64,000 bases of DNA, taken from positions 40,120-104,119 of the forward strand of contig NZ_QDKQ01000023.1 of NCBI RefSeq assembly GCF_003116815.1. The letters are read 5' to 3'. This document shows, piece by piece, positions 15,105-36,825 of the stretch. The DNA comes from Caulobacter endophyticus. GTDB lineage: Bacteria; Pseudomonadota; Alphaproteobacteria; Caulobacterales; Caulobacteraceae. Each line of letters begins with the position of its first letter. Position 1 is the first letter of the stretch. The notes beneath the pieces were generated by a model. The model made no database searches. It was not told the DNA's origin and saw nothing but the letters and a program-made list of their open reading frames with translations. A program made the translations under genes and the position numbers.

Positions 15105-18059
15105 CTAGAAGCGCTTTGACACGCTGACCGCGATGAGACGGGGATCGAGGGTGAAGACGTTGGCCGTGAGGCCAGTGTCGTCGCTGTTGGTGAAGCTGTC
15201 GGTGATGGGGGTCTTGTCGAACAGGTTCTTGACGTAGGCCTGGAAGATCAGCCCGTCGGCGGGCTTCTCCAGCGTCACCGAGACGTTGACGTTGTCCCAC
15301 GCCTTCAGGCGGTCGTAGGTGGTGTTGTAGACCCGCGCATAGCTGCTGCCCTGGTAGTAGTAGTCGCCGCGCAGCGTCAGCTCCCAGTCGTCCTTGAAGA
15401 AGGTGTATTGGGCGCCGACGTTGGCGGTCCAGTTCGGGGCGTTGGGCAGTTCGTTGCCGCTCAGGTCGGCGTTGAAGCCCCGGCCGCCGTTCGGCGCCTC
15501 GGTCAGCGGGTCGTAGGTGAAGCCGTAGATGCGCCAGAACGGCAGGTTCGAGGTGAAGTTCGGGTTGAACGTCCCCGTCCGCAGCGAGCCGCCGCACAGC
15601 GCCTGCAGCGCCGCCACCGTGGTGTCCGCCGGCAGGTTGCGTTGCAGGATCGTCTGGACGTGCCTGGTCGGGGCCACGCAGTTCGACGGAACCTGCAGCC
15701 ACGGCCGCAGAACCGTCCAGTCGGCGTTGCCCTGGGTGCGGTTCATGACGTCGATGGAGCCTTCGCCATCGTCGATCCTGGTGTTCAGGTAGCCGAGGTT
15801 GGCGTCCATCCGGAAATTGCGGTTGGGACGCCAGATCGTCTCCAGCTCCAGGCCCCAGGTGCGCGAGTCGAAGTTCTCGTTCAGCGAGATCCGGTCGACG
15901 ATCTGCGAGACCTGATAGTCCTTGTAGTCGTAGTAGAACGCCGTGGCGTTCAGGCGCAGGGCGCCGCCGGCCAGGGTGTTCTTGGTGCCGATCTCGAAGG
16001 CGTTGACGTATTCGGGATCGAAGGTCTGGGCCAACGGCTGGTACTGGATCACGGCGGGGTTGATATCGACCCGCGGCGGGTTGGCGCCGCCGCCCTTGTA
16101 GCCTCGCGAGAACGAGGCGTAGACCAGGGTGTCCTGGGTGAAGCTCAGCTGCGGCTTCCAGTCCACGACCAGGCGGCCGGTGACCGCGTCCCACTGCTGG
16201 TCGATGTCGGGCAGAGCCGGATAGTCGCGGCTGACATAGCCGCCCGAAAGCTGACCCGGATTGCCGCGGTCCGCGCCCAGCAGCAACTGGCTGGGATAGG
16301 GCGTGCTGACCTTGCGGTCGTCGGTGTAGCGCAGGCCGGCCGTCAGTCGCCATTCTGGCGTCAGGTCGAAATAGGCCTCGCCGAAGACGCCCCACGACCG
16401 AGTGTGGATCTGGTTCTTGCTGCGGAAGTAGTTGTGGCCGTCGCCCGCCAGGTTATCCAGCGAGGTCGGATCGACGTAGATGCATTCCTTGGTCGTCGCC
16501 GGCGTACAAGGCTGCGTCTGGCGGCCCAGGTTGGACGGCGCTCCGATCACGACGTTGTAGTAGTACTCCGCCAGGAACGAGAACAGGTTGTTGAAGACGA
16601 AGTAGTCGTCGTTCGACTTGAAGTCGATGTAATTGGCGCCCAGGCTGAAGTTGAAGCGCCCCTCGTAGGACGACTGCAGGCGCAGTTCCTGGGTCCACTG
16701 GCGGTTATCCGAGCGGCTCAGGTCGACCGAGAGCATCCGGTTAGAACGCCCGAGCTGCGGATCGTTGTAGTAGCCGCCGGGCGTCGGGGTGGTCGGCGCG
16801 ACGATCGGCCGACCCAGGACGTCGTACAGGCCTTCCGAGCTGTTGAAGATCGGATTGGAGACGAAGCGGTTGTAGTCCTGCGACGAGTAGTAGTCGTCCT
16901 TGGCGTAGGCCGTCTGCGAGATCAGCTTCAGATTGTCGCTGAGATCGAACTCCATGTTGAACTGATAGACATCGTTCTTCACGCGGAAGATCGGGTCGTA
17001 GCTCGTGGCGATCTCGCGCAGGTCCCGCGACTGGGTCAGGCCGGCATACGGGTTGACGCCCGGGTTCACCGCGTACACGGCCTGCCGGTCGGCGGTGTAG
17101 CCGTAGTTCATGCTGGCCAGGAAGACGTGGGCGAAGGCGCCGCCGTTGGGCACGCCGTAGGCCGCGTCGCTGTAGAGCGAACCGGGCAGGCAGCCCTGGC
17201 TCAGGCGGTTGCGGACGACCTGCGAGGTGATGGCCACGCCGCCGATCGAGGTCGGGCCCGGATCGGTGGTGCAGAGCTGCTTGCCGGTGCGCGAACGCTG
17301 GTCGTCTTCCTCGAAGTGCTCCCAGATCAGGTTGCTGCGGAAGCGGTCGTTCGGCTCGAAAGCCAGCGACAGGCGCGTGGACCACAGGTCGCGATCGTTG
17401 ACGTGCGTGTCGTTGAAGCTGTTGTAGTCGAAGCCGTCGCGCTTGGTCATCGACCCGGCCAGGCGAACGGCGAAGGCCTCGCCTAGCGGCACGTTGACCA
17501 GGCCCTGCATGCGGCGGCTGTCGTAGTTGCCCGCCTCGCCCTTGATGAAGCCCTCGAACTTATGGCTGGGCAGGTTCGGGATCATGTTGACCACGCCGCC
17601 GGTGGCGTTGCGGCCATACAGCGTGCCCTGGGGACCGCGCAGCACTTCCACGCGCTGGACGTCCAGGTACTCCTGCTCGAACAGGCGGTTGCGGATCAGC
17701 GGGGTGGAATTGAAGCTCACGGCGACGGCAGGGTCGCTGCTGGCCGAGATCGCCTTGGTCCCGACCCCACGGATCGAGAAGTTGTACATGCTGAAGTTGG
17801 CCTTGGAGAACGAGACGTTCGGCACGGCCCGGACCAGTTCCGAGCCGCCTTCGATCTTCATCTCGTTCAGCGCTTCCGAAGACAGGGCCGAGACGGCGAT
17901 CGGCACCTGCTGGATCGACTCTTCACGCTTCTGGGCCGTGACGATGACGTCCTCGACCTGGGTCGCTTCCTGCGCGAAAGCCTGGCCCGCCCCGGCGGCG
18001 AGCGCAAAAATCGACGCGGTTACAGCCAGACGCGCGCGAACGCAGGGCTTTGAAGCCAT
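15105..18059 (-). CDS. TonB-dependent receptor
   Basis: This is a full-length 984-residue outer-membrane receptor. It has a signal peptide ending AGQAFAQ, TonB box VEDVIVTAQKR, plug motifs (NFSIRGVG and VEVLRGPQGTLYGRNATGG), a 22-strand-type barrel and a C-terminal VSVSKRF. The long plug-barrel type with VEDVIVTAQKR is the expanded alphaproteobacterial family that imports hydrophobic or aromatic compounds as well as siderophores. It is divergent from the FAD dehydrogenase across a 271-bp region holding palindromes also found at the tetR/coq4 promoter. This suggests it imports the substrate of that pathway (inference). Confidence 0.93.
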   Translation of the reverse strand: MASKPCVRARLAVTASIFALAAGAGQAFAQEATQVEDVIVTAQKREESIQQVPIAVSALSSEALNEMKIEGGSELVRAVPNVSFSKANFSMYNFSIRGVGTKAISASSDPAVAVSFNSTPLIRNRLFEQEYLDVQRVEVLRGPQGTLYGRNATGGVVNMIPNLPSHKFEGFIKGEAGNYDSRRMQGLVNVPLGEAFAVRLAGSMTKRDGFDYNSFNDTHVNDRDLWSTRLSLAFEPNDRFRSNLIWEHFEEDDQRSRTGKQLCTTDPGPTSIGGVAITSQVVRNRLSQGCLPGSLYSDAAYGVPNGGAFAHVFLASMNYGYTADRQAVYAVNPGVNPYAGLTQSRDLREIATSYDPIFRVKNDVYQFNMEFDLSDNLKLISQTAYAKDDYYSSQDYNRFVSNPIFNSSEGLYDVLGRPIVAPTTPTPGGYYNDPQLGRSNRMLSVDLSRSDNRQWTQELRLQSSYEGRFNFSLGANYIDFKSNDDYFVFNNLFSFLAEYYYNVVIGAPSNLGRQTQPCTPATTKECIYVDPTSLDNLAGDGHNYFRSKNQIHTRSWGVFGEAYFDLTPEWRLTAGLRYTDDRKVSTPYPSQLLLGADRGNPGQLSGGYVSRDYPALPDIDQQWDAVTGRLVVDWKPQLSFTQDTLVYASFSRGYKGGGANPPRVDINPAVIQYQPLAQTFDPEYVNAFEIGTKNTLAGGALRLNATAFYYDYKDYQVSQIVDRISLNENFDSRTWGLELETIWRPNRNFRMDANLGYLNTRIDDGEGSIDVMNRTQGNADWTVLRPWLQVPSNCVAPTRHVQTILQRNLPADTTVAALQALCGGSLRTGTFNPNFTSNLPFWRIYGFTYDPLTEAPNGGRGFNADLSGNELPNAPNWTANVGAQYTFFKDDWELTLRGDYYYQGSSYARVYNTTYDRLKAWDNVNVSVTLEKPADGLIFQAYVKNLFDKTPITDSFTNSDDTGLTANVFTLDPRLIAVSVSKRF

Positions 18060-18205
18060 GCTATTTCCTCCCCTACCCCGACCCAGCTCTCCGTCCAGGC
18101 CGACGAACGTTTCCCCCGCCCCAAATCAATCTCCGACGGCATTGGCGGACGCGCCGACGGTTGGGTTGTACGATCTACCTATTCACTAGCATGTCAATAC
18201 ATTAC

Positions 18206-18220
18206 TTACACCGATGTTCA
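18206..18220. promoter_or_regulatory. Putative TetR-family operator half of regulon (site 1)
   Basis: TTACACCGATGTTCA contains ACAC-CG-ATGT, one mismatch from the ACAT-CG-ATGT core at 29961-29970. It sits immediately upstream of the putative -35 element of the TonB receptor. Confidence 0.45.
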
Positions 18221-18278
18221 GTTCCCTGACGTAAGTTCCGTACGGCTACGTAGCGCTCCCAATGACGCCGAATTAATA

Positions 18279-18294
18279 TTTACATCGCTGTAAA
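18279..18294. promoter_or_regulatory. Putative TetR-family operator (site 2)
   Basis: TTTACA-TCGC-TGTAAA is a perfect inverted repeat with 6-bp arms, 37 bp upstream of the FAD dehydrogenase ATG. It nearly matches TTTACATCGATGTCAA at the tetR/coq4 promoter. A repressor here would cover the core promoter of the FAD dehydrogenase gene. Confidence 0.6.
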
Positions 18295-18330
18295 AATAGA
18301 CATTGTCTGCGCCGCACGGGAGGGCAAGGA

Positions 18331-20007
18331 ATGGACGCTGACGTCATCGTCGTCGGAGGCGGGCTGGCCGGATTGGTCGCCGCCAACGAACTGGTCCAGG
18401 CGGGCAAGCGAGTGGCCCTGGTCGACCAGGAGAACGCCGCCAACCTGGGCGGTCAGGCCTTCTGGTCGTTCGGCGGCCTGTTCCTGGTCAATTCTCCCGA
18501 GCAGCGGCGCCTGGGCATTCGCGACAGCCTGGATCTGGCCTGGCGCGACTGGCTGGGCAGCGCCGACTGGGACCGGCTGGACGGCGCATTGCCCGAGGAC
18601 GAATGGGCGATCCGCTGGGGACGGGCCTATGTGGAGTTCGCCGCCGGCGGCAAGCGCGACTGGCTGCGCCGGCACGGGATCTCGCTGACCCCGATGGTCG
18701 GCTGGGCCGAGCGCGGCGCCGGCCAGGCCCTGGGCCACGGCAACTCGGTTCCCCGCTTCCACGTCGCCTGGGGCACCGGCACCGGCGTGTCCGAGCCCTT
18801 CGCCGATCGCGCCCGGGAGGCCGCCGGCCGGGGCCGACTTTCATTCCATCACCGCCATCGCGTCGACGCCCTGGTCGTCGAGGGCGGCCGTGTCACCGGC
18901 GTCTCGGGCAGCGTGCTGGCGCCCGACGACGCGCCGCGCGGGGCGCCGTCCAACCGGAAGATCGTCGGCGACTTCACCCTGAAGGCCGGCGCCGTCGTGC
19001 TCGCCACCGGCGGCATCGGCGGCAACCATGACCTGGTCCGCCGCCACTGGCCCGAGCGACTGGGAAGGCCGCCCGCGAGCATGATCACCGGCGTGCCCGC
19101 CTATGTCGACGGACGGATGCTCGACATCGCGGCCGGCGCCGGCGCGCGGCTCGTGAACCGCGACCGTATGTGGCACTATGTCGAGGGCGTCCAGAACTGG
19201 GATCCGATCTGGCCCAGGCACGCGATCCGCATCCTGCCGGGGCCCTCGTCCATGTGGTTCGACGCCTTGGGGCGACGCCTGCCCTTCCCCGCCCTGCCCG
19301 GCTACGACACCGTCGCCACCCTCCGCTATCTGCGCACCACGCCGGACCTGGCCGAGCACGATCACTCCTGGTTCATCGTCAGCCAGAAGATCCTGGAAAA
19401 GGAGTTCGCTCTCTCCGGTTCCGAGCAGAACGGCGACATTACCAACCGTCGCCGCCTGTCGCTGCTGAAGTCGCGTCTGGGCAAGGGCGCGCCGCCCGAG
19501 GTCGACGCCTTCAAGCGCAACGGCGCCGACTTCGTGGTCTCGGCCAATCTCGAGGAACTGGTCGGCAAGATGAACGCCCTGACTGCCGCGCCCCTGCTCG
19601 ATCCCGCCCTGATCCGCCGGCAGATCGAGGACCGCGACGCCCAGATGGCCAATCCCTTCGCCAAGGACCTGCAGGTGATGGGCATCCACAACAGCCGCCG
19701 CTCCCTCGGCGACCGGCTGGCCCGTACGGCCAAGCCGCACCGGATCCTGGATCCGGCCGCCGGCCCGCTGATCGGGGTCAAGCTGCACGTCCTGACCCGC
19801 AAGTCGTTGGGCGGGCTGCAAACCGATCTTGCGGGCCGCGTGCTCACGCCCGACGGCCAGGTGCTGGAAGGTCTGTATGCGGCCGGCGAGGCCTCGGGCT
19901 TCGGCGGCGGGGGGCTGCACGGCTACAACGCGCTGGAGGGCACCTTCCTGGGCGGCTGCATCTTCTCGGGCCTGACCGCCGGCCGGGCCCTGGCGGGAGC
20001 GGTCTGA
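18331..20007 (+). CDS. FAD-binding dehydrogenase, fumarate reductase/3-ketosteroid dehydrogenase-like flavoprotein
   Basis: This 558-residue protein starts with a dinucleotide-binding fold (DVIVVGGGLAGLVAANEL, residues 4-21), followed by LGGQAFWSFGG. The C-terminal FAD segment GLYAAGEASGFGGGGLHGYN precedes ALEGTFLGGCIFSGL. That layout is the fumarate reductase / 3-ketosteroid-delta1-dehydrogenase flavoprotein superfamily, whose members desaturate or reduce C-C bonds. There is no Sec or Tat signal, so it is cytoplasmic. A GGGAGGG site precedes the ATG. It is followed after 3 bases by a symporter of the bile-acid family, so the two are probably co-transcribed. The actual substrate is not deducible. 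Confidence 0.85.
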   Translation: MDADVIVVGGGLAGLVAANELVQAGKRVALVDQENAANLGGQAFWSFGGLFLVNSPEQRRLGIRDSLDLAWRDWLGSADWDRLDGALPEDEWAIRWGRAYVEFAAGGKRDWLRRHGISLTPMVGWAERGAGQALGHGNSVPRFHVAWGTGTGVSEPFADRAREAAGRGRLSFHHRHRVDALVVEGGRVTGVSGSVLAPDDAPRGAPSNRKIVGDFTLKAGAVVLATGGIGGNHDLVRRHWPERLGRPPASMITGVPAYVDGRMLDIAAGAGARLVNRDRMWHYVEGVQNWDPIWPRHAIRILPGPSSMWFDALGRRLPFPALPGYDTVATLRYLRTTPDLAEHDHSWFIVSQKILEKEFALSGSEQNGDITNRRRLSLLKSRLGKGAPPEVDAFKRNGADFVVSANLEELVGKMNALTAAPLLDPALIRRQIEDRDAQMANPFAKDLQVMGIHNSRRSLGDRLARTAKPHRILDPAAGPLIGVKLHVLTRKSLGGLQTDLAGRVLTPDGQVLEGLYAAGEASGFGGGGLHGYNALEGTFLGGCIFSGLTAGRALAGAV

Positions 20008-20010
20008 GCC

Positions 20011-20904
20011 ATGGACGCCGACGCCCTCGCCTCGCCGCTGACCACGGTCGCCTTGCCCGCGGCCCTGGGCCTGATCATGTTCGGCCTGGGCCTCAGCCTG
20101 ACGCCCGCCGACTTCGCGCGGGTCGGCCGCCGGCCGCGCGCCGCCGTCGTGGCCTTGTCCTGCCAGCTGCTGGTGCTGCCGGTGATCGGCTTCGCCCTGG
20201 CCCTGCTGTTTCGCCTGCCGCCGGAGACGGCGGTCGGGCTGATGCTGCTGGCGGCCTCGCCGGGCGGCACGGCGGCCAATCTCTACAGCCACCTCTTCCG
20301 CGGCGATGTGGCGCTGAACATCAGCCTGACGGCGATCAACTCGATCCTGGCCGTCGCCACCCTGCCGATCGTCGTCAACCTGTCGGTGGCCTGGTTCCAG
20401 CCGGGCGAGCTCAGCATCGGCCTGCGCTTCTCCAAGACCGTCGAGGTGTTCCTTGTAGTGCTAGGCCCCGTGGCGCTGGGCATGCTGGTGCGCCGCCTGC
20501 GCCCGGCTTTCGCCGACGCCATGGACCGGCCGGTGCGAGTGGTCTCAGTGGCGTTCCTGACCCTGCTGATCGGCGCGGCGGTCGCCGCCAATTTAGCGAC
20601 GCTGAAGGACGAGGTGCTGGCCCTGGCCGGCGTCACCGTCGCCTTCTGCCTGCTCAGCCTGAGCGTCGGCTTCGTGGTTCCGCGCCTGCTTCGCGTGTCC
20701 CGCGATCAGGCGATCGCCAGCGCTTTCGAAGTGGGGCTGCACAACGCCGCCCTGGCCATCGTCGTCGCCCAGTCGGTGCTGCAGCGACCCGAGATGAGCC
20801 TGCCGGCCGCCGTCTACGGCGTGCTGATGTTCCCGCTGGCGGCGGTGTTCGGGCTGGTGCTGACGCGGACGGCGCCGCGCCAGGCGACGGCGGGGGCTAT
20901 TTGA
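20011..20904 (+). CDS. Bile acid:sodium symporter (SBF) family transporter
   Basis: The 297-residue membrane protein has nine or ten hydrophobic helices and family motifs GLGLSLTPADFARV, LLAASPGGTAANLYSHLF, NISLTAINSILAVATLP and EVGLHNAALAIVVAQS. Bacterial SBF members carry bile acids, pantoate, thiazoles and other organic anions with sodium. Here it directly follows the FAD dehydrogenase, and its 3' end overlaps the end of the opposing acyl-CoA ligase gene by 8 bp. The context argues for uptake of a carboxylated hydrophobic compound, which is an inference. Confidence 0.9.
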   Translation: MDADALASPLTTVALPAALGLIMFGLGLSLTPADFARVGRRPRAAVVALSCQLLVLPVIGFALALLFRLPPETAVGLMLLAASPGGTAANLYSHLFRGDVALNISLTAINSILAVATLPIVVNLSVAWFQPGELSIGLRFSKTVEVFLVVLGPVALGMLVRRLRPAFADAMDRPVRVVSVAFLTLLIGAAVAANLATLKDEVLALAGVTVAFCLLSLSVGFVVPRLLRVSRDQAIASAFEVGLHNAALAIVVAQSVLQRPEMSLPAAVYGVLMFPLAAVFGLVLTRTAPRQATAGAI

Positions 20905-22621
20905 GCTCCCGCCGCAGCACCTTGCCGACCGGCGTCTTTGGCAGCGGGTCGGCGCGGAACTCCACGATCCTGGGCACCTTGTAGGCCGTCAGCCGCTCGC
21001 GGCAGTGGGCGACCAGCGCCTCGGACGTCAGCTCGGGCGAGCGTCGCACCACGACGATCTTGATCCGCTCGCCCTGCACCGGATCGGGCACGCCGATCGC
21101 GGCGACTTCCTCGACCAGCGGGTGGGCGGCGACCACGTCCTCGATCTCGCTGGGATAGACGTTGAAGCCCGAGACCAGGATCATTTCCTTCAGGCGGTCC
21201 AGCAGCTTCACGCGGCCGTCGGCCTGCATCACCCCGATATCGCCCGTGGCTAGCCAGCCGTCGGCCGACAGCACCTTGGCCGTCTCGTCGGGATGGTTCC
21301 AGTAGCCCTTCATCACCTGCGGCCCGCGCACGCACAGCTCGCCCGGCTCGTCGACGCCGCACCACGAGCCGTCTTCGCGGCGCATGCGCACCTCGGTCGA
21401 CGGCACCGGAAGCCCCACCGTGCCGTCGAAGCCCATGGTCTCGGGGTTGTCGATGTCGACATAGCCGATGCAGACCACGGGCGAGCATTCGGTCAGGCCG
21501 TAGCCCTCGATCACCGGCGCGCCGGTGACGTCCTGCCACTCCTCGGCCACGGCCCGCTGGGTGGCCATGCCGCCGGCGATGGTCAGGCGCAGGTCCGAGA
21601 AATCGCGGCCGCGAAAGGCCTCGTTGTTCAGCAGGCTGGTGAAGAGGGTGTTCAGACCCGTAAGCCCCGTGAAGCGCTCGTTGCGCAGCACCCACTCCAC
21701 CCGCTTGGCGTCGCGCGGATTGGCGATGAGGATGTTGCGCCCGCCCACGCCGACAAACATCAGCAGGTTCGCGGTCAGTGAGAACACGTGATAGAGCGGC
21801 AGCATCGTGACATTGCCCACCGCCTGGTCGGCGGGGATCTGGGTCATGATCCAGGCCCGGCCCTGCAGCACGTTGGCGATGATGTTGCGGTGGGTCAGCA
21901 TGGCCCCCTTGGCCACGCCGGTGGTGCCTCCCGTATATTGCAGGAAGGCCAGGTCGCCGGGGCGGATCTCGACCGGCGTCGGCTTCAGCTGCCGCGCCCT
22001 GCGCATCATCGCCGGCCAGCGCAGCGCGCCGGGCAGGCGCCACTTCGGAACCAGCTTCTCGACGTGGCGCATCAAGGCGTTGACCGCTGCGCCCTTGGCC
22101 GGGCCCATCATGTCGCCCATGGCGGTGACGACGACATGGCGGATCGCCGTGCCTTCGATGGCCTGCTCCAGCGTGTGGGCGAACATCTCCATGGCCACGA
22201 TGGCCACCGCGCCGCTGTCCTCCAGCTGGTGGTGCAGCTCGCGCGGCGTATAGAGCGGGTTGACGTTGACCACCACGGCGCCGGCCATCAGCGTCCCGAA
22301 CAGGGCCACCGGATACTGCAGGCAGTTGGGCATCATCAGCGCCACGCGCTCGCCCTGCCGCACGCCGACCGACTGCAGCCAGGCGGCGAAGGCCTTCGCC
22401 TCGCTCAGCGCCCGGCCGTAGGTGACGCCAGCGCCAAGGCTGACGAAGCCGGTGCGCTCGGCGTATCGGCCGGCGTCGGCCTCGAACAGCTCGCCGACCG
22501 AGCGCCAGAGGGCCAGCTCGTCATCGATGGTGGGCGGCACGTCGGCGCGATAGGACCGGGTCCAGAAACGCTCCGCCCACAGGCGAGCGGCGTCGGCGGC
22601 GAGGGTCTGGGCGTCGGTCAT
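20897..22621 (-). CDS. Long-chain acyl-CoA ligase (AMP-forming)
   Basis: This 574-residue enzyme of the adenylate-forming superfamily joins a fatty or related acid to CoA with ATP. Motifs seen are the phosphate loop YTGGTTGVAKGA, the acyl-site signature IEGYGLTECSP, the hinge TGDIGVMQADG..KLLDRLKEMI, and the C-terminal catalytic Lys in PLPKTPVGKVLRRE. I use the ATG at 22621, which shares an ATGA overlap with the thiolase stop; the open frame further upstream is out-of-frame thiolase. It is the last gene of the coq4-to-ligase run and supplies the activated substrate for the enzymes encoded upstream. Confidence 0.93.
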   Translation of the reverse strand: MTDAQTLAADAARLWAERFWTRSYRADVPPTIDDELALWRSVGELFEADAGRYAERTGFVSLGAGVTYGRALSEAKAFAAWLQSVGVRQGERVALMMPNCLQYPVALFGTLMAGAVVVNVNPLYTPRELHHQLEDSGAVAIVAMEMFAHTLEQAIEGTAIRHVVVTAMGDMMGPAKGAAVNALMRHVEKLVPKWRLPGALRWPAMMRRARQLKPTPVEIRPGDLAFLQYTGGTTGVAKGAMLTHRNIIANVLQGRAWIMTQIPADQAVGNVTMLPLYHVFSLTANLLMFVGVGGRNILIANPRDAKRVEWVLRNERFTGLTGLNTLFTSLLNNEAFRGRDFSDLRLTIAGGMATQRAVAEEWQDVTGAPVIEGYGLTECSPVVCIGYVDIDNPETMGFDGTVGLPVPSTEVRMRREDGSWCGVDEPGELCVRGPQVMKGYWNHPDETAKVLSADGWLATGDIGVMQADGRVKLLDRLKEMILVSGFNVYPSEIEDVVAAHPLVEEVAAIGVPDPVQGERIKIVVVRRSPELTSEALVAHCRERLTAYKVPRIVEFRADPLPKTPVGKVLRRELK

Positions 22622-23904
22622 TTCTCGATCACCGCAACCACGCCCTGGCCGCCGGCCGCGCAGATCGAGATCAGGCCCCGGCCGCTTCCCTTGCGGTCCA
22701 GCATCGTCGCCAGATGCGCCAGGATGCGTCCGCCGGTGGCGGCGAACGGGTGACCGGCGGCCAGCGAGCTGCCGTGGACGTTCAGCTTCTCGCGGTCGAT
22801 GGCGCCGGGCGCGCGATCCAGGCCCAGCCGTGTGCGGGCGTAGTCCTCGTCCTCCCAGGCCTTCAGCGTGCACAGCACCTGGGCGGCGAAGGCCTCGTGG
22901 ATCTCGTAGTAGTCGAAGTCCTGCAGTCTGAGCCCCAGCTTGCCCAGCATGCGCGGCACGGCGTAGGCGGGCGCCATCAGCAGCCCCTCGTCGCCCTTGA
23001 CGAAGTCGACCGCCGCCGTCTCGCCGGCCCGCAGCCAGGCCAGGACCGGCAGGCCGTGCGCCTTGGCCCACTCTTCGCTGGCCAGCAGCACCGTCGAGGC
23101 GCCGTCGGTCAGGGGCGTGGAGTTGGCGGCCGTCAGCGTGCCGTGCTCGCGATCGAACACCGGCTTCATCGCGGCGATCTTGGCCGGGTCGATGTCAGGC
23201 CGCAGGTTGTTGTCGCGCTTGAGGCCCCGGAACGGGACCACCAGGTGGTCGAACAGGCCGTCGGCATAGGCCTTGGCCATGCGCTGGTGGCTGCGCACGG
23301 CCAGGGCGTCCTGCTCGGAGCGCGGGATATTCCAATGCTTGGCCATGACCTCGCAGCTCTGGCCCATGGAGAGCCCGGTTCGCGGCTCGGCGTTGCGTGG
23401 CGGCTCGGGCTTGAACGGGGCGGTCAGGCCAGCGCCCAGCAGGGCCTTGATCCTGCCGCCGTTGGTCTTCTCGCGGTTGGCCGCCAGCAGAGCCTTGCGG
23501 AAGCCCTCGTTCAGCGCGATCGGCGCATCCGAGGTGGTGTCGACGCCGCCGGCGATCCCGACGTCGATCTGGCCCAGGGCGATCTTGTTGGCCACCAGGA
23601 TCGCCGCCTCAAGTCCCGTTCCGCAGGCCTGCACGACGTCATAGGTCGGGGTGTCGTGGCCGATGGTGGTCGACAGCAGACTTTCGCGGGTCAGGGCGAT
23701 GTCGCGCGAGTGCTTGAGCACCGCGCCGGCCGCCACTTCGCCCAGGCGCAGGCCGTGCAGGTTGAAGCGATCGGCCAGGCCCTGCAGGGCGGCCGTCAGC
23801 ATGTCCTGGTTGGAGGCGTCGGCGTAGGCGGTGTTGGAGCGCGCGAAGGGAATGCGGCTGCCGCCGAGGATGGCGACGCGGCGCGGCGCGGGCAGGGTCA
23901 GCAT
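22618..23904 (-). CDS. Acetyl-CoA acyltransferase (thiolase), FadI/FadA2-like
   Basis: This 428-residue thiolase cleaves 3-ketoacyl-CoA to acetyl-CoA plus a shortened acyl-CoA. The nucleophile is Cys94 in DVVQACGTGLEAA; the base His is in LAAGHPFAATGGR, and the second Cys in SICAAGGQG near the C-terminus. Its length and long-loop type resemble FadI and mycobacterial FadA2. Start and stop overlap its neighbours by 7 and 4 bp, so it is co-translated with maoC and the ligase. Confidence 0.94.
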   Translation of the reverse strand: MLTLPAPRRVAILGGSRIPFARSNTAYADASNQDMLTAALQGLADRFNLHGLRLGEVAAGAVLKHSRDIALTRESLLSTTIGHDTPTYDVVQACGTGLEAAILVANKIALGQIDVGIAGGVDTTSDAPIALNEGFRKALLAANREKTNGGRIKALLGAGLTAPFKPEPPRNAEPRTGLSMGQSCEVMAKHWNIPRSEQDALAVRSHQRMAKAYADGLFDHLVVPFRGLKRDNNLRPDIDPAKIAAMKPVFDREHGTLTAANSTPLTDGASTVLLASEEWAKAHGLPVLAWLRAGETAAVDFVKGDEGLLMAPAYAVPRMLGKLGLRLQDFDYYEIHEAFAAQVLCTLKAWEDEDYARTRLGLDRAPGAIDREKLNVHGSSLAAGHPFAATGGRILAHLATMLDRKGSGRGLISICAAGGQGVVAVIEK

Positions 23905-24764
23905 GGAGGGTCCTGTGGCTTGAGGCTCAGGCGGCCGCGCAGATGGGTGCGCGCGCCCTGGGCGTCCTTGATTTCGAAGGCGCGCTCGGCCCCGTCAGGA
24001 CCCGCGAGCAGCTGGATATGGCCGGGCAGGAAGACCGGCGCGCGGAACGAGACCTCGACCTCGCCGGCCTCGACGGCCCGCCCATCGGTCAGGGCCGCTA
24101 TGGCCCGGGCCTTGACCCACATGCCGTGGGCGATGGGCCGACTGAAGCCGAACAGCTTCGCGCCGAGCGCCGAGGTGTGGATCGGGTTGGCGTCGCCCGA
24201 GACCCTGGCGTAGCGGCGGCCAAGATCGGCCGGCAACGGCCAGGCCTCGACCGGTATGTCGGCAGGTCCGGCGTCGACGCTCGGCGCGGGATTTCCGCGC
24301 CCCGCCTTGCCCAGGCGTAGATAGACGCTGGTTCCTTCCCAGACGACCGCGCCGTCGCGAGCGGCCGTGGTCTCCAGCGAGAAGGCCTGGCCCTTGTCGT
24401 GGGCCAGCAGCTCGCCGGTCCGCACCGTGATCGCCAGCTTCTCGCCCGCCTTCAGCGACGCGTGCTGGCGGACGCGGTTGGACAGGTGGACCAGCCCCAT
24501 CACCGGATAGGGAAAGTCGCTCGCCAGCATCAGCCGCATCTGCAGCGGAAAGGCCAGCATGTGGGGGAAGGTCAGCGGAACGCCGCCATCCAGCCGAAAG
24601 CCGCAGGCCTGGGCGTAGGCGCCGATCGCCTCGCTCCGCAGCCAGGCGTCCGCCTGCAGCGCCGTGTCCGGCAGCCCCTCGCCCCCGCCCCGACGCAGCA
24701 GACCGCGCAGGGCGCCGCCCGCCAGCGTCAGGGTCGACACCGGCTGCGCCAGATCGGTGGTCAT
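23898..24764 (-). CDS. MaoC-like enoyl-CoA hydratase (double hotdog)
   Basis: The protein has 288 residues. The C-terminal hotdog carries the hydratase-2 motif YARVSGDANPIHTSALGAKL with catalytic Asp and His, followed by GFSRPIAHGMW; the N-terminal half looks like a degenerate hotdog. This double form matches HtdX/HtdY-type R-specific enoyl-CoA hydratases. The ATG at 24764 follows the fabG stop after two bases; a longer upstream frame is shadow. It supplies the hydration step of the beta-oxidation set. An R-specific product fits the FabG-type reductase encoded just upstream. Confidence 0.9.
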   Translation of the reverse strand: MTTDLAQPVSTLTLAGGALRGLLRRGGGEGLPDTALQADAWLRSEAIGAYAQACGFRLDGGVPLTFPHMLAFPLQMRLMLASDFPYPVMGLVHLSNRVRQHASLKAGEKLAITVRTGELLAHDKGQAFSLETTAARDGAVVWEGTSVYLRLGKAGRGNPAPSVDAGPADIPVEAWPLPADLGRRYARVSGDANPIHTSALGAKLFGFSRPIAHGMWVKARAIAALTDGRAVEAGEVEVSFRAPVFLPGHIQLLAGPDGAERAFEIKDAQGARTHLRGRLSLKPQDPPC

Positions 24765-24766
24765 GG

Positions 24767-26095
24767 TCAGGCCCCGAGCAGGCTTTGGCCGCAGACGCGG
24801 ACCACCTGGCCGTTGACCCCCCCGCTGGCCGGATGGGCCAGCCAGGCGATGGTCTCGGCCACGTCGACCGGGCTGCCGCCCTGCCCCATGCTGTTCATCC
24901 GCCGCCCGGCCTCGCGGATGGCGAAGGGGATGGCGGCGGTCATGCGGGTCTCGATGAAGCCTGGGGCCACGGCGTTGATGGTCACGCCCTCGCCCAGGCC
25001 GTCGCGGGCCAGGCGGCGCACGGCCCCGATCCAGCCGGCCTTGGACAGGGCGTAGTTGGTCTGGCCCATGTTGCCGGCCACCCCGCTCAGCGACGAGACG
25101 GCGATGATGCGGCCGTTGCGGCGGATCGCGTCGGCCTCCAGCAGCGCCCGGGTCAGGGCCAGTGGCGCGCCGAGGTTGACGGCCATCACGCTGTCCCACT
25201 CGCGGGCGTCCATCCGCGCCAGGGTGCGGTCGCGGGTGATGCCGGCGTTGTGCACCACCACGTCGAAGCCGCCCGCCGCCCGCGCCGCCGTCACCAGGGC
25301 CGCAGCAGCCTCCTGCGAGGTGATGTCCAGACCCAGCGGCCTGACGCCCAGTTCGTCGGCCAGGCCTTCAAGGTCCTCGCGCGCGGCCGGCACGTCCAGA
25401 GCCGTGACCCGCGCGCCCTCGGCCGCGAACAATCGTACGATCGCCTCGCCGATGCCCCGCGAGGCGCCGGTGACCAGCACGTGCCGGCCGGCATGGCCGA
25501 GCCTGGCGTCCCCCGACACCCCGGGCGCGGCCACCCGCACCACCTGGCCCGACACATAGGCCGAGCGCGGCGACAGCAGGAAGTCCAGCGTGCTGGCCGC
25601 GGCCTCCTCGTCGCCGGGGGCGATATAGAGCAGTTGCACCCCGATGCCGCGCCGCGCCTCCTTGGCCAGCGAGCGGACGAAGCCCTCCAGTCCCCGCTGG
25701 ATCGCCTCGGCCTCGGCGGTCGCCGTCGTCTCGGGCGGAACACCGATCACCACGATCCGGCCGTGCTCGGCCACCGAGCGCACCGCCTGGTGGAAGAAGC
25801 CGTAAAGCGCCCGGGCCGAGGCCACGTCCACGCAGTCGGAGGCGTCGAAGATCAAGCCCCCGTAGCGCTCGTCGCTCGACCAGCGCCTGCGCAGGGGCGC
25901 CCCCGAGACGCTGGCGACGCGCTCCAGGACAGGGGTCATCCGGCCGCTCCCGGCCGATTCCAGCAGCAGGGGCTGCACCGCGACGGCCCCGGCCTCGGCG
26001 CGCCGTTGCAGCGGCGCGGGCTTGGGCAGGCCCAGGGCGCCGACCATCCAGCCGCCCAGGCCGCTATTGGCGAACTCCAGGTAACGGTCGGTCAT
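24767..26095 (-). CDS. High-molecular-weight 3-oxoacyl-[ACP/CoA] reductase, FabG4-like
   Basis: This 442-residue protein has two domains. Residues 1-200 form a degenerate Rossmann-like domain, and 205-442 a classical SDR with GASRGIG (210-216), NAGITRD, catalytic Ser335, Tyr348 and Lys352, and INAVAPGFIETRM. This matches the HMwFabG class (mycobacterial FabG4, about 450 residues), which uses NADH and acts on CoA esters. I start at the ATG at 26095 in an ATGA overlap with fadE. It works with the MaoC hydratase and thiolase as a 3-hydroxyacyl-CoA dehydrogenase. Confidence 0.92.
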   Translation of the reverse strand: MTDRYLEFANSGLGGWMVGALGLPKPAPLQRRAEAGAVAVQPLLLESAGSGRMTPVLERVASVSGAPLRRRWSSDERYGGLIFDASDCVDVASARALYGFFHQAVRSVAEHGRIVVIGVPPETTATAEAEAIQRGLEGFVRSLAKEARRGIGVQLLYIAPGDEEAAASTLDFLLSPRSAYVSGQVVRVAAPGVSGDARLGHAGRHVLVTGASRGIGEAIVRLFAAEGARVTALDVPAAREDLEGLADELGVRPLGLDITSQEAAAALVTAARAAGGFDVVVHNAGITRDRTLARMDAREWDSVMAVNLGAPLALTRALLEADAIRRNGRIIAVSSLSGVAGNMGQTNYALSKAGWIGAVRRLARDGLGEGVTINAVAPGFIETRMTAAIPFAIREAGRRMNSMGQGGSPVDVAETIAWLAHPASGGVNGQVVRVCGQSLLGA

Positions 26096-28575
26096 TGGGT
26101 CACCTTTTCGCGCTTGGCGGCGCGCTTGCCGCCCCGGCGCGTCAGGCCCTCGGCCAGGCCGAAGTCCTGCGGGAAGTCGTCGACCTGGATGGCCATGTCG
26201 GCCAGCACCGCGAAGCGGGCGAAGAGATCGCGCTCTTCGGACGAGATCAGGCCCCTGGCCTCGACCTCGCCGGCCCATGCGTCCAGCAGGGTCAGGTTCT
26301 GTGGCGCGCGGGCGATGCGCCCCGAGGCGATCTCGGGCTTGAGGCGACGCTCGACGGCCTCGATCTTCGGATGCAGGTCGAAGGCGGCCGCCGTGGCGGC
26401 GATCGGGTCCACTTCGATGCGCGGCGTCCACGAGCCGGCCAGCAGGCGCTCGCGCGCCGGACCATGGCGCTGGATCAGGCCGGCGACGTCGGCCGAGACC
26501 CGGTCGTCGGGACCCGCGCGGGTCAGGCCGACGCCGACCGCGCCCAGCACGAAGGCGACGACGCGGCTGGGATGGTTGGCCAGCAGCGCCCGCCAAGCCT
26601 CGCTGGCCCGGGCCAGGGCGTCCTGCGCGGCCCAGTGCACCAGCGGCAGGTCCTCGGCGGGGCGGCCCTCGTCCTCGAAGCGCTTGAGCGCGCTCGACAG
26701 GATCAGCAGCTGCGAGAGGATGTCGCCCAGCCGCCCGGTCAGCGCGCCCTTGCGCTTCAGCGCCCCGCCGACGGTGGCCATCGACAGGTCCGAAGCCAGG
26801 GCCAGCAGGGTCGAGAAGCGGGTGGCGGCGCGGTAGTAGCGGCCAAGCTGGGGCGCGGCCCCCGCCGGCCTGCCGATCAGCAATCCGCCGGTCACGGCGA
26901 AGGCGCTCGCCCGGGCCAGGTTGCGGAACAGGAAGCCGGCATAGCCGAACAGGGCCGCGTCGAAATCCTTCAGGTTCTGGCTCTGCGCGGTGCGCATCAG
27001 GGTCAGGACGTAGGGATGGCAGCGGACCGCGCCCTGGCCGTAGATGATCAGGGTGCGGGTCATGATGTTGGCGCCCTCGACCGTGATGGCGATCGGGATC
27101 TGCTGGTAGGCGCGGGCCAGGAAGTTGCCCGGACCCATGCAGACGCCCTTGCCGCCGACCACGTCCATGGCGTCGTTGACGACGATCCGGGCCCGCTCGG
27201 TCACATGATACTTGGCGATGGCCGACACGACCGACGGCTTCTCGCCCTGATCCAGGGCCGCGGCCGCCAGCTGGCGCAGGCTGTCGGAGGCGTAGAGGTG
27301 GCCGGCCATGCGGGCCAGCGGCTCCTGCACGCCCTCGAAGGCGCCGATCGGCATGTTGAATTGCCGGCGGATGGCCACGTAGGCCCCGACCATGCCGACC
27401 GCCAGCTTGGACATGCCCACGTTCGACGACGGCAGCGAGATCGCGCGCCCGGCGGCCAGGCATTCCATCAGCATCCGCCAGCCGTTGCCCACCTGGGGCT
27501 GGCCGCCGATGACCATCTCCATCGGCACGAAGACGTCGTCGCCGGTGATCGGGCCGTTCTGGAACACCGCATTCAGAGGCCAGTGGCGGCGGCCGATATT
27601 GACGCCCGGATGGTCGCGCGGCAGCAGCACGCAGGTGATGCCGGGCTCGGCGCCCTGGCCCAGCAGGCCGTCGGGATCGACGGCGCGGAAGGCCAGGCCG
27701 ATCACCGTCGCGATCGGCGCCAGGGTGATGTAGCGCTTGCGCCAGCTGACGCGGAAGCCCAGCGTCTCGCGGCCGTTCCACACGCCCCGGCAGACGACGC
27801 CGGTGTCGGTGATCGAGGCCGCATCAGAGCCGGCATAGGGATTGGTCAGCGCGAAGCACGGGATCTCGTCGCCCCGCGCCAGGCGCGGCAGGTAGTGATC
27901 CTTCTGGGCGTCCGTGCCGTAATGCAGCAGCAGTTCGGCCGGGCCCAGCGAGTTGGGCACCATGACCGACACGGCCGCGGCCGAGCAGCGGGTCGACAGC
28001 TTCTGCACCACCTGGCTGTGGGCGTAGGCCGAAAAGCCGAGGCCGCCATAGCGCTTGGGAATGATCATCCCCAGGAAGCCCTTGTCGCGGGCGTACTCCC
28101 AGGCGGCCGGCGGCAGGTCCTGCCAGACCGAAGTGCTCTCCCAGTCGTTCGACAGATCGCACAGGTGCTCGGCCTCGATGTCGAGGAAGCGCTGCTCCTC
28201 GGGCGACAGCTTCGGCGCGGGCGTGGCCAGCAGTCGCTTCCAGTCGGGCTTGCCGGCGAACAGCTCGGCGTCCCACCAGACGTTGCCGGCCTCGACGGCG
28301 GCCTGCTCGGTGGGGCTCATGCGCGGCATGATCCCGGCGAAGGCCTTCATGGCCGGGGCCGACAGCACCGCGGCTCGCAGCGGCCGGAAGGTCGTCAGCA
28401 CCGCGATCGGCGCGGCGATCGCGGCCAGCACCAGCGTCGTGGTCGAGCCGATCAGCCCCGTGGCGAAGCCGGCGGCTATCCATATGGCCGTCGCTGCGGC
28501 CCAGAGCACGGCCCTGGCCTGCACGAAGGTCAGCACGAAAGCGATGAGCGCAAGCGCGCCAATCCAGATCAGCAT
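26092..28575 (-). CDS. fadE: Acyl-CoA dehydrogenase, FadE type
   Basis: The 827-residue enzyme matches E. coli FadE (814 residues) almost throughout: N-terminal membrane helices (MLIWIGALALIAFVLTFVQA), MPRMSPTEQAAVEAG, WWDAELFAGKPDWKRL, GFLGMIIPKRYGGLGFSAYA, and EIPCFALTNPYAGSDA for FAD/substrate binding. It introduces the trans-2 double bond in acyl-CoA, passing electrons to ETF. The ATG at 28575 with GGGGGA upstream aligns with the E. coli start; a TTG at 28623 would add 16 residues. It overlaps fabG by four bases. Confidence 0.95.
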   Translation of the reverse strand: MLIWIGALALIAFVLTFVQARAVLWAAATAIWIAAGFATGLIGSTTTLVLAAIAAPIAVLTTFRPLRAAVLSAPAMKAFAGIMPRMSPTEQAAVEAGNVWWDAELFAGKPDWKRLLATPAPKLSPEEQRFLDIEAEHLCDLSNDWESTSVWQDLPPAAWEYARDKGFLGMIIPKRYGGLGFSAYAHSQVVQKLSTRCSAAAVSVMVPNSLGPAELLLHYGTDAQKDHYLPRLARGDEIPCFALTNPYAGSDAASITDTGVVCRGVWNGRETLGFRVSWRKRYITLAPIATVIGLAFRAVDPDGLLGQGAEPGITCVLLPRDHPGVNIGRRHWPLNAVFQNGPITGDDVFVPMEMVIGGQPQVGNGWRMLMECLAAGRAISLPSSNVGMSKLAVGMVGAYVAIRRQFNMPIGAFEGVQEPLARMAGHLYASDSLRQLAAAALDQGEKPSVVSAIAKYHVTERARIVVNDAMDVVGGKGVCMGPGNFLARAYQQIPIAITVEGANIMTRTLIIYGQGAVRCHPYVLTLMRTAQSQNLKDFDAALFGYAGFLFRNLARASAFAVTGGLLIGRPAGAAPQLGRYYRAATRFSTLLALASDLSMATVGGALKRKGALTGRLGDILSQLLILSSALKRFEDEGRPAEDLPLVHWAAQDALARASEAWRALLANHPSRVVAFVLGAVGVGLTRAGPDDRVSADVAGLIQRHGPARERLLAGSWTPRIEVDPIAATAAAFDLHPKIEAVERRLKPEIASGRIARAPQNLTLLDAWAGEVEARGLISSEERDLFARFAVLADMAIQVDDFPQDFGLAEGLTRRGGKRAAKREKVTQ

Positions 28576-28686
28576 GGTCGCAATCCCCCGACCGGCGGGG
28601 CGGCCCCCGTCGGCTTGTGTCAAAGTCGGTTACTCGGAACGCGAGGGCGGCCGGCGGACCGCCCGGTTACTCATTTTGAGCGGCGC
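28576..28686 (-). promoter_or_regulatory. Spacer between DUF2147 and fadE genes
   Basis: This is the only gap over 10 bp inside the seven-gene minus-strand run. It holds a 9-bp direct repeat CGGTTACTC at 28627-28635 and 28664-28672, 37 bp apart, and a TTGACA on the minus strand at 28623-28618 without a good -10. An internal promoter is possible. Confidence 0.35.
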
Positions 28687-29115
28687 TCAGCGCACGCGTT
28701 TCCAGGTCTGGGTGCGGCACAGCAGCGGGGCGATGCAGCCCCTCACCGCCAGGGTGTCGTCATCCAGCAAGGTCAAGGTGCCGGTCGAGGCGCCCTGCCC
28801 CGTCTCCGGGTCGTAGAGCGGCCCGCCGGACCAGATTCTCGGGCCGCCGGTGAAATTGGCCAGCACCGTCAGGTCCTTCAGGCGGCGCGCGCGAAGCTCG
28901 GTCTTGCGATTGCGCACATCCCGCTGATCGGGATCGGCGCGCAGCGGCTTGGCGTCCTTCAGGCGGCCGCAATAGCTCTCGCCGCAGCGCTCGATGGCCA
29001 CCAGGCCGTTCTCGGCCGAGGTGCGCCAGCGGCCAGTCAGGCCAGCGTCCTGCGCCAGGGCTGGCGCGGCCAGAGCAGAGGCCGCCAAGGCCAGGCCCGC
29101 GAGAAGCCGGGTCAT
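28687..29115 (-). CDS. Secreted DUF2147-family protein
   Basis: This 142-residue protein has a Sec signal (LLAGLALAASALAAPALAQ) and the DUF2147 pattern: LTGRWRTSAENGLVAIERC, GESYCGRLKDAKPL and the end RGCIAPLLCRTQTWKRVR. The ATG at 29115 shares an ATGA overlap with the coq4 stop, so it is translationally coupled to it. It is a paralogue of the protein at 13165-13611. Its presence in a lipid-degradation operon suggests a periplasmic accessory role, but no activity is known. Confidence 0.85.
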   Translation of the reverse strand: MTRLLAGLALAASALAAPALAQDAGLTGRWRTSAENGLVAIERCGESYCGRLKDAKPLRADPDQRDVRNRKTELRARRLKDLTVLANFTGGPRIWSGGPLYDPETGQGASTGTLTLLDDDTLAVRGCIAPLLCRTQTWKRVR

Positions 29116-29903
29116 GCCTGGCCTCCCAGATAGGCGTTGCGCGTTTGCGGCGGCACGCGCTCGTAGAGCGTCGGCCGCGGGATGCGCAGGCGGGCTCGCG
29201 CGGCGTCCAGCGGCTCGGCCATCAGCGCCTCGTAGTCCTCTCCCGGCAGCCACGAGGCCTTGCGGCCATTGCGCCAGGCCTGCAGCACGGCCCGTCCGCA
29301 CGGATGGCCGGTGCGGGCCCGCATGAACTGCACCGCGGCCCCGGCGGCGATCAGGCCAAAGCCGGTGCTGCGGGTCTGGGGCAGCGAGAATGCGACCACG
29401 CAGGCCTCGCCCAGGGCGTCGGTCTGGTAGCCGGTCAGCACATGCCAGATGTCGTGCACGTCGCGGATGCGGCGGGCGTACCAGGCCCGCGGATGAGCCG
29501 CCTCGATCTCGGTGTCGGCGACCTTGTTGCTCTCCGCCGCCAAGCCGTAGGCCGACAGGTTGCGGCTGTCGATGAACGCCAGATAGGCCGCGCCCACCGT
29601 GCCTTCGGGAAACCCCGCCAGCCAGTCACGATCCTGCAGCCGGTCGGAAAGCTCGACCTGCTGATAGGCCTGGATGCCGCCCTGCGGCGTATCCATCAGG
29701 CGCTGGTAACCCCACTCGATCGAACGGCCGGCCAGGGCGTTCATGATCTCGAAGACCTGCCGCGTGTCCTCCTTGTCGGCCACCAGCCGGCCGAAGGCCC
29801 GCATGGCCCGGACGGGCTGGATGCGGCGAGGCGCCGCATGGGAAGGTTGACGATTCTGGCCGTGAACTGGGCGCAGTACGGGCGCGGTCGGCGCAGCTTG
29901 CAC
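29112..29903 (-). CDS. COQ4-family protein
   Basis: This 263-residue protein carries the complete COQ4 metal motif HD-x2-H-x11-E: His150, Asp151, His154 and Glu166 in DVHDIWHVLTGYQTDALGE. Eukaryotic COQ4 acts in ubiquinone synthesis and binds lipid; bacterial homologues are poorly studied. I accept the GTG at 29903 because AAGGGGAA lies 6 bases before it and no ATG precedes the conserved domain closely enough. It is the first gene of the run that continues into fadE, fabG, maoC, thiolase and ligase, and it is divergent from tetR. Confidence 0.88.
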   Translation of the reverse strand: MQAAPTAPVLRPVHGQNRQPSHAAPRRIQPVRAMRAFGRLVADKEDTRQVFEIMNALAGRSIEWGYQRLMDTPQGGIQAYQQVELSDRLQDRDWLAGFPEGTVGAAYLAFIDSRNLSAYGLAAESNKVADTEIEAAHPRAWYARRIRDVHDIWHVLTGYQTDALGEACVVAFSLPQTRSTGFGLIAAGAAVQFMRARTGHPCGRAVLQAWRNGRKASWLPGEDYEALMAEPLDAARARLRIPRPTLYERVPPQTRNAYLGGQA

Positions 29904-29973
29904 TTGCGGTTCCCCTTGTTGGAGCCTAAGGAAAAAGCCTTATCTACATGAATGTCATTTACATCGATGTCAA
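29904..29973. promoter_or_regulatory. tetR/coq4 divergent promoter with tandem operator-like palindromes
   Basis: ACAT-GA-ATGT (29946-29955) and ACAT-CG-ATGT (29961-29970) are two palindromes with centres 15 bp apart. The second is embedded in TTTACATCGATGTCAA (29958-29973). On the minus strand its end reads TTGACA, a consensus -35 for coq4, so a bound repressor would block it. The sites also cover the tetR start, consistent with autorepression. A TAAGG-N6-CCTTA inverted repeat lies at 29927-29942. Confidence 0.65.
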
Positions 29974-30602
29974 TTGAGAAAAGCGCAACCCGCCGTCGAC
30001 GCCGCGTGCCCGAAGAAGCGCGCCGCGAAGCGATCGCCTCCGCGCGCGCCCTGCTGCTGAGGGGCGGACCCGATGCCGTGACATTGTCTGCCGTCGCCGG
30101 CGAGATCGGCGTGACCCACGCCAACCTCATCCACCACTTCGGTTCGGCCGCCGGCCTGCAGTCGGCGCTGATGGGCTCGATGGTCTCCGACCTCACCCAG
30201 GCGCTGGACGAAGCCATCGCCCGCCTGAAGACCGACGAGGGTGCGCCGCTCGAACTGGTCAACGCGGTTTTCGACGCATTTGACACCGGTGGCGCGGGTC
30301 GCCTGGCCGCGTGGATCACCCTGTCGGGCGACCTGTCGCACCTCGAACCCGTCCGAGCGGCCGTCCAGAACCTGGTCGAGGCCATCGCCGACAAGATGGG
30401 CGCCCAGGACGCCCAGGCCCGCGAGGGCGTCGGCGCTGCCGTGCTGTTCATCGCGCTCAGCGCCTTCGGCGAGGCCCTGATCGGCCCGCCCCTGCGCGAC
30501 ATGCTGAGCCTGCCCGACGGCACGGGCCGCCGCGTCGTGGCCAGTCTGCTGCCCCGCTTCCTCATCCCCAAGACCCCGTCGACCGGAGCCTCGGCTACGT
30601 AA
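29952..30602 (+). CDS. TetR-family transcriptional regulator
   Basis: The 216-residue regulator has an N-terminal TetR helix-turn-helix (RREAIASARALLLRGGPDAVTLSAVAGEIGVTHANLIHHF) and a helical ligand domain. The GVTHANLIHHFGSAAGL recognition helix is canonical. The start could be ATG-29952 or ATG-29967; neither has a clear ribosome site, so the message may be leaderless. It is divergent from the coq4-fadE operon and is the natural candidate for binding the ACAT-N2-ATGT palindromes there and upstream of 18331. The ligand may be an acyl-CoA, as for FadR/PsrA-type TetRs (inference). Confidence 0.9.
   Translation: MSFTSMSIEKSATRRRRRVPEEARREAIASARALLLRGGPDAVTLSAVAGEIGVTHANLIHHFGSAAGLQSALMGSMVSDLTQALDEAIARLKTDEGAPLELVNAVFDAFDTGGAGRLAAWITLSGDLSHLEPVRAAVQNLVEAIADKMGAQDAQAREGVGAAVLFIALSAFGEALIGPPLRDMLSLPDGTGRRVVASLLPRFLIPKTPSTGASAT

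Positions 30603-31166: not shown

Positions 31167-36825
<5,659 letters not shown>

Follow-up and report, generated by a model that had tools for sequence, protein, structure and literature searches.

The mycobacterial cholesterol regulons of KstR and KstR2 place uptake and CoA-dependent oxidation under TetR-type control. To our knowledge, the uptake and sensing of water-insoluble carbon are less worked out in Alphaproteobacteria than in Pseudomonas or Escherichia coli. PsrA and FadP are reported as TetR-type regulators of fatty-acid-degradation genes in gamma- and betaproteobacteria, FadP being unique to the betaproteobacteria (PMC5343134). In Pseudomonas, praA and praB sit with alkB and ompP1 and their products are called alkane-solubilising (PMC4542665), and Pra of P. 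aeruginosa (PA4590) reportedly emulsifies and improves growth on hexadecane (PMC5410065). Here we analysed a 64-kb stretch of the Caulobacter endophyticus genome (the window), in which two nearly identical palindromes lie in the divergent promoters of a TonB receptor/FAD dehydrogenase pair and of a tetR/coq4 pair. Judging from the sequence comparisons below, it is highly probable that a single TetR repressor controls itself, the Coq4-DUF2147-FadE-FabG-MaoC-thiolase-FadD operon, the TonB receptor, the FAD dehydrogenase/SBF operon and an unlinked PraB-like gene.

Operator palindromes and the genes that they flank

Five putative operators were recognised in the two divergons and scored with a matrix whose training set included all five. 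They are given without strand; distances are in base pairs (bp).

29958-29973: primary operator TTTACATCGATGTCAA, matrix score 28.2, overlapping the tetR start
29943-29958: second operator TCTACATGAATGTCAT, score 19.6, 15 bp from the primary one, centre to centre
18279-18294: operator TTTACATCGCTGTAAA, score 27.5, centre 44 bp before the FAD dehydrogenase start
18205-18220: weaker operator CTTACACCGATGTTCA on the TonB side of the divergent promoter, score 15.2, reading CTTACATCGATGTTCA in the loci L043 and L044
18182-18197: weaker operator TTCACTAGCATGTCAA, also on the TonB side, score 16.4; related pairs with a 22-bp spacing occur in several Brevundimonas loci

The near-identical palindromes at 18279-18294 and 29958-29973 lie exactly where an earlier reading of this DNA by eye and ORF list alone (the sequence-only reading) had placed them. 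The strict ACAT-N2-ATGT form that it gave them does not hold at the 18279 site, which reads ACAT-CG-CTGT. The extra related sites that it saw beside each are present and weaker (18205-18220 and 29943-29958), and it had omitted the one at 18182-18197. The right half of the primary operator carries the likely tetR start codon at 29967, where ATGTCAATT encodes M-S-I; we favour this start because the MSI beginning is conserved.

The palindromes are rare. Scanning the window for TTTACATCGMTGTMAA with up to three mismatches gave five strand-matches, four of which are the 18279 and 29958 sites on both strands, compared with 0.20 expected from 100 shuffles. Throughout the 5.42 Mb genome (78 contigs, 68.5% GC), TTTACATCGATGTAAA within one mismatch occurs at just two places, 18279-18294 and 29958-29973, while independent, identically distributed (i.i.d.) letters would give 0.0013. 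A third place, at three mismatches, lies before a PraB-like gene; the i.i.d. expectation at up to three mismatches is 0.9. At that threshold about one match is thus expected per genome, and unrelated ones were seen in several genomes, which leaves room for the two palindromes being alike by chance. The one-mismatch pair, far in excess of expectation and conserved at both places in relatives, together with the cross-genome conservation described below, rules against chance, which we regard as extremely improbable.

The two divergons comprise eleven genes, and the gene calls of the sequence-only reading, that of TetR included, were borne out by domain and family profile matches (bit scores given with the model's cut-off).

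29967-30602, plus: TetR-family regulator, 211 amino acids, the proposed repressor (PF00440)
29112-29804, minus: Coq4-family protein, first gene of the putative catabolic operon (PF05019 on open reading frame (ORF) 29112-29903; a GTG start at 29903 is also open)
28687-29115, minus: DUF2147 protein (PF09917)
26092-28575, minus: FadE-type acyl-CoA dehydrogenase, 827 amino acids (NF007000, 1039 bits, cut-off 600)
24767-26110, minus: FabG-type 3-oxoacyl reductase (NF006110, 573 bits, cut-off 410)
23898-24797, minus: MaoC-like hydratase, start approximate (PF01575 on ORF 23898-25199)
22618-23904, minus: thiolase, acetyl-CoA C-acyltransferase (NF006740, 722 bits, cut-off 539)
20897-22570, minus: FadD-type acyl-CoA ligase (best match NF005463, 723 bits, under the cut-off of 869; start approximate, the match beginning at residue 167 of a longer ORF)
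18331-20007, plus: FAD-binding dehydrogenase of PRK12834 type, FAD_binding_2 (NF009472, 914 bits, cut-off 476)
20011-20904, plus: SBF/bile-acid-sodium-symporter family transporter (PF01758; TIGR00841, 196 bits, under the cut-off of 326)
15105-18059, minus: TonB-dependent outer-membrane receptor, 984 amino acids (PF00593, PF07715)

From the tetR side, the minus strand carries Coq4 to FadD in the order listed; from the other side, the plus strand carries the FAD dehydrogenase and then the SBF symporter, with the TonB receptor (minus) and TetR (plus) pointing outward. FadE lies above the NF007000 cut-off and reaches 962 of the 1300 set by the E. coli FadE model NF038187. The best matches of FadD are long-chain ligases, the FAD dehydrogenase is distantly related to 3-ketosteroid dehydrogenases, and comparison of the TonB receptor and FadE with solved structures gave general family relations and no substrate. 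The TetR_N domain PF00440 scored 31.0 bits, or 30.9 on the shorter start, against a cut-off of 24. Scans for sigma-70 promoters gave no consensus match at either divergon, and for this reason we claim no overlap between operator and promoter.

Other matches were examined individually. At a matrix score of at least 12, the window holds four places besides the five operators, at 4821 (20.0) and at 16618, 53341 and 59066 (12.9-13.4), and the reversed matrix gave two matches. The 4821 match (TGTACTTTTTTGTAAA), 38 bp before an outer-membrane-receptor-like gene, was discounted as AT-rich and poorly palindromic. Genes of this receptor-like family, assigned by eye, occur at 2600-4783 of the window (minus strand) and at L149:10648-13287, and adjoin PraB-like and TonB genes in several Sphingomonadales loci; NCBIfam gave no match for the window protein, and Pfam and NCBIfam none for that of L149. 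The looser pattern TKACATNNATGTMA, with up to one mismatch, occurs at seven places in the genome, of which C33:69792, within a typA-like coding frame, and C33:121991, near a TonB-receptor-like gene (both by eye), were judged to be chance. At C14:124380 (L072:1499-1516), TATGACATCGCTGTCATA stands just before an SMP-30-like gene and downstream of a glycerol-kinase-like gene (by eye), and is probably a different regulator's site. C69:126413 is a further match in the genome, for which the surrounding ORFs were listed.

Conservation within and beyond Caulobacteraceae

We compared 20 Caulobacter genomes, 15 with a close TetR and five without (G047 with no relative at E<=1e-20, the other four with one of about 40% identity). 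A motif common across the genome and unrelated to these genes, the outcome that the sequence-only reading had named as telling against it, is not what we found. The C. endophyticus genome has the two one-mismatch places; the 20 genomes hold 28 places within two mismatches, and 27 of these lie at module promoters, namely those of TetR or a tandem paralogue (14), the FAD dehydrogenase (9) and PraB-like genes (4). The 28th is in G047. Read backwards, with up to three mismatches, the palindrome pattern gave 0 to 2 places per genome. Upstream of TetR, a pair like TCTACATGAATGTCAT / TTTACANNNATGTCAA, 15 bp apart and with the second copy entering the start codon, is kept in Caulobacter and in many Brevundimonas loci. 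We thus observed directly the motif, its rarity, its conservation, its position and its tracking of the TetR gene.

The 300 bp before the FAD dehydrogenase start contain a site in each of the 11 Caulobacter loci (L036-L046, from which training sites were taken; shuffle p<=0.01). Of 15 Brevundimonas loci, 12 have one at p<=0.01 and 14 at p<=0.05, with L049 outside the count. The regulator itself is 96-98% identical in C. zeae, C. radicis, C. endophyticus, Caulobacter sp. 602-2 and a strain filed as C. vibrioides T5M6. Among 249 genomes of the family, 100 hold a TetR relative at E<=1e-20 and 44 hold one of at least 54% identity; the FAD dehydrogenase (E<=1e-100) occurs in 28, all within those 44 (hypergeometric 5e-26, shared descent ignored). 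In G165, where both divergons lie on one 3.22 Mb contig, the TetR and FAD dehydrogenase genes are about 2 Mb apart and sites are kept at both, and therefore the link between the two sites survives where the divergons are unlinked. The evidence for unlinking comes from G165 only; the drafts G064, G097 and G154, with the genes on different contigs, were excluded because contig breaks may explain the separation.

These observations bear on an alternative in which TetR controls its own divergon only, and the TonB/FAD-dehydrogenase palindrome belongs to another regulator with a similar operator. Operators of similar form do recur, TGACAAAAATGTCAA for TetR paralogues of 40% identity and TGACATCGCTGTCA before an SMP-30-like gene (by eye), and in G221 the FAD dehydrogenase adjoins another TetR. 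On the other hand, FAD-dehydrogenase sites persist alongside TetR sites in two genera, the FAD dehydrogenase is seen only in close-TetR genomes (28 of 28), and the C. endophyticus genome contains no second TetR relative at E<=1e-20. We consider this alternative unlikely, and retain a single TetR acting at both divergons. In other Caulobacter, TetR relatives at about 40% identity (L079:9847, L080:9747, L097:10073) carry TGACAAAAATGTCAA at their own start codon, with an MSI start, and an operator over the start codon may thus be a habit of this TetR branch. A palindrome ATTACATTGATGTAAT is present at L184:1501 (G200) and G215:C1:2011808, in two Caulobacter genomes without a close TetR, the L184 copy preceding an apparent small secreted protein gene; it is probably another regulator's operator.

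To look beyond the family, we kept 80 named loci with a TetR relative out of the 121 found and scored a matrix built from 14 Caulobacter sites only over the 300 bp upstream of TetR, the expectation coming from dinucleotide shuffles. The shuffles replaced an earlier random-window control, which mixed coding and intergenic DNA and was unfair to AT-rich promoters. A score of at least 15 was reached in 46 of 51 Caulobacteraceae loci (one filed only as Pseudomonadota) versus 0.25 expected, a count tied to the training set; in 22 of 27 non-Caulobacteraceae loci (25 Sphingomonadales, one Maricaulis, one unnamed bin) versus 0.19; and in one of two Steroidobacteraceae loci versus 0.02. With the matrix reversed, none of the 51 Caulobacteraceae and neither of the two Steroidobacteraceae loci reached 15. 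Of the 143 sites scoring at least 18 over all 80 loci (1.50 Mb), 140 fall in the stretch between 420 bp upstream and 60 bp inside of a module gene start; the reversed matrix gave two sites. Relatives of a PF10118 metal-dependent hydrolase (two tested by Pfam) occur in 26 of the 27 non-Caulobacteraceae loci, the operator usually preceding them by about 35-45 bp, and several Caulobacter loci hold this hydrolase and Coq4 together. The predicted operator is shared across Caulobacterales and Sphingomonadales.

Several points weigh against the single-regulon reading. G086 and G191 possess the TetR and no place within two mismatches, each having a three-mismatch site at TetR. At the FAD dehydrogenase, the strong site is lost and the weaker pair kept in C. 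hibisci (L044), the upstream site is not significant in L053 (p=0.11), and scores are only 10.5-13.4 in L050, L052, L059, L060 and L061. In G221, whose TetR is 59% identical, the FAD dehydrogenase lies beside a different TetR and has no clear site (best score 10.4, p=0.015). Upstream of TetR, 11 of the 80 loci score below 15 (L117, L118, L140, L150, L152, L153, L161, L162, L167, L171, L177), and the reversed matrix reaches 15 in 2 of the 27 Sphingomonadales-group regions. A seventh PraB-like gene, in G203, which adjoins a TonB gene, shows no clear site. Conservation of the tetR site may be partly coding, its right half encoding M-S-I. Many of the compared genomes are close relatives, making the counts non-independent and inflated, and the module genes behind the count of 140 of 143 were partly picked from the same loci, with distant TonB paralogues included.

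At the G221 locus (L082, about 10007-10099), the FAD dehydrogenase is divergent to that different TetR (38% identical), and a different palindrome, GTTATTGTCATTCTTGATAATAAC, can be seen by eye; the locus looks like a regulator swap.

PraB-like genes and other neighbours

The third predicted target was found by pattern alone. In the C. endophyticus genome, unlinked to the window divergons, the three-mismatch site is centred 54 bp before a gene for a small secreted relative of PraA/PraB, which scores 48.6 bits (cut-off 120, E 7e-13) against NF041562, the PraB alkane-oxidation activator model, and is a relative rather than a member by that cut-off. PraB-like genes were found in 7 of the 249 family genomes at E<=1e-12. 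Six of these seven, that of C. endophyticus included, carry TTTACA-N4-TGT(A/G)AA centred about 53-56 bp before the start, with varying core letters, and five of the six site-bearing proteins are only 46-56% identical to the C. endophyticus one. In G111 and G188, PraB-like genes overlooked by the protein search came to light through the DNA pattern scan. PraB-like genes adjoin the TonB gene in several Brevundimonas and Sphingomonadales loci, and the window has related frames just downstream of its own TonB gene.

14388-14897, minus: small secreted protein of PraB-like type, its gene close behind that of the TonB receptor (34.5% identical to the L186 PraB-like protein, E 2e-20)
13861-14226, minus: second PraB-like reading frame, apparently broken near its start
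13165-13611, minus: second DUF2147-like gene, after the PraB-like frames (32% identity to the first DUF2147, E 3e-8)

The L186 protein in turn matches PraB at E 1.5e-16, and NCBIfam gave no direct match for the 14388-14897 protein. The second frame looks broken because its signal-peptide-like start sits in another frame. The sequence-only reading had proposed a single regulon of about eleven genes; eleven were counted and a single regulon is supported, and the predicted regulon is larger than proposed, with the unlinked PraB-like target in addition to the two PraB-like frames and the DUF2147-like gene downstream of the TonB gene.

On the other flank, an RND efflux system (outer-membrane protein, HlyD-type, AcrB-type) follows tetR at 31167-36825 (plus), and no site before it reached a matrix score of 12. 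AcrB-type genes of 51-52% identity are also found near DUF2147-TetR in L119 and L122.

Proposed mechanism and comparison with known systems

In the mechanism that we propose, the TetR-family repressor would bind the palindrome, consensus T(T/G)ACAT-NN-ATGT(C/A)A. When inducer is absent, it would occupy the pair of sites over its own start codon, which are spaced by 15 bp, and keep both tetR and the divergent coq4-DUF2147-fadE-fabG-maoC-thiolase-fadD operon silent; it would also be bound at the sites of the TonB-receptor/FAD-dehydrogenase-SBF divergon and at the site before the unlinked PraB-like gene. On meeting an inducer, for which an acyl-CoA or a fatty-acid-like derivative of the substrate is the likeliest candidate, it would leave the DNA, and uptake at the outer membrane, the secreted solubilising protein, activation and oxidation would be turned on as one. 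Uptake would fall to the TonB receptor, delivery or emulsification to the Pra-like proteins, inner-membrane transport to SBF, activation to FadD, and oxidation to FadE, MaoC, FabG and thiolase; a MaoC/FabG pair suggests an (R)-hydroxyacyl route. The TetR as the binding protein, repression, the inducer and the operon structure are what we infer from the arrangement of sites and genes. The paired palindromes over the tetR start codon and in the divergent promoters are consistent with a repressor that would also limit itself.

It could be argued that the protein instead activates its targets or acts in both ways. Some sites lie over the start codon, others as far as roughly 160 bp upstream and a few at about 400 bp, and FasR, an activator per NCBIfam, is among the weak family matches of the TetR. 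Nevertheless, an operator lying across the regulator's own start codon fits repression, as do sites in pairs in a divergent promoter, and most TetR proteins repress. We find activation or dual control improbable, and repression remains our reading.

A long-chain hydrophobic substrate, either a long-chain fatty acid or alkane-derived, is our leading guess, suggested by the gene set and by the Pra reports on hexadecane and the alkB cluster. Steroid or bile-acid catabolism, raised by the SBF symporter and by the distant 3-ketosteroid-dehydrogenase relation, was ranked lower because FadE and the best FadD matches are of fatty-acid type and the third target is PraB-like. A wider and distinctly more tentative proposal is that the module may be an alphaproteobacterial, self-contained means of acquiring a lipid-like nutrient that does not dissolve in water. 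FadL/OmpP1 would give way to a TonB receptor, secreted Pra-like proteins would solubilise or deliver, and one TetR would sense the acyl-CoA product and run uptake and oxidation. The same repressor and operator would serve lineage-specific enzymes, Coq4 and beta-oxidation in Caulobacter and Brevundimonas and the PF10118 hydrolase in Sphingomonadales.

One operator, shared by Caulobacterales and Sphingomonadales, would define a small, testable regulon in which a TonB receptor is joined with Pra-like secreted proteins and the genes of beta-oxidation. It may serve as a way in to the substrate of a TonB receptor and a PRK12834 flavoprotein that are both orphans, and of DUF2147 and a Coq4 relative. 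The PraB-like target would also be a worked case of an operator at a gene whose place differs between clades, away from the cluster in one and next to the TonB gene in others.

Compared with PsrA and FadP, the likeness is TetR-type control of fatty-acid-degradation genes. The regulon proposed here differs in adding the TonB receptor, the FAD dehydrogenase/SBF operon and PraB-like genes, and its TetR scores 14.9 bits against the PsrA model NF053516 (cut-off 300), FadP being compared by description only. PsrA operators we take to differ in sequence from the operator here. KstR and KstR2 resemble it in uptake and CoA-dependent oxidation under TetR-type control, with a predicted flavoprotein target here distantly related to 3-ketosteroid dehydrogenases; unlike theirs, the eleven genes here include no steroid-ring genes, FadE is of fatty-acid type with long-chain ligases as the best FadD matches, and the KstR model NF033703 gave 16.2 bits (cut-off 280). 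The alkB-praA-praB-ompP1 cluster shares the joining of Pra-type proteins with an outer-membrane protein. It differs in having OmpP1 where a TonB receptor stands here, in its alkane hydroxylase, which is not among the genes identified here in a genome not searched for one, and in its Pra proteins, those here being under the family cut-off (48.6 of 120). A literature search brought up no paper containing the operator in any of six spellings and, by topic, no description of the regulon, in line with the sequence-only reading, which knew of none; subscription papers lay mostly outside the search, and an earlier description is possible. Set beside these systems, the predicted regulon is new and of a familiar type, with a putative operator common to two alphaproteobacterial orders.

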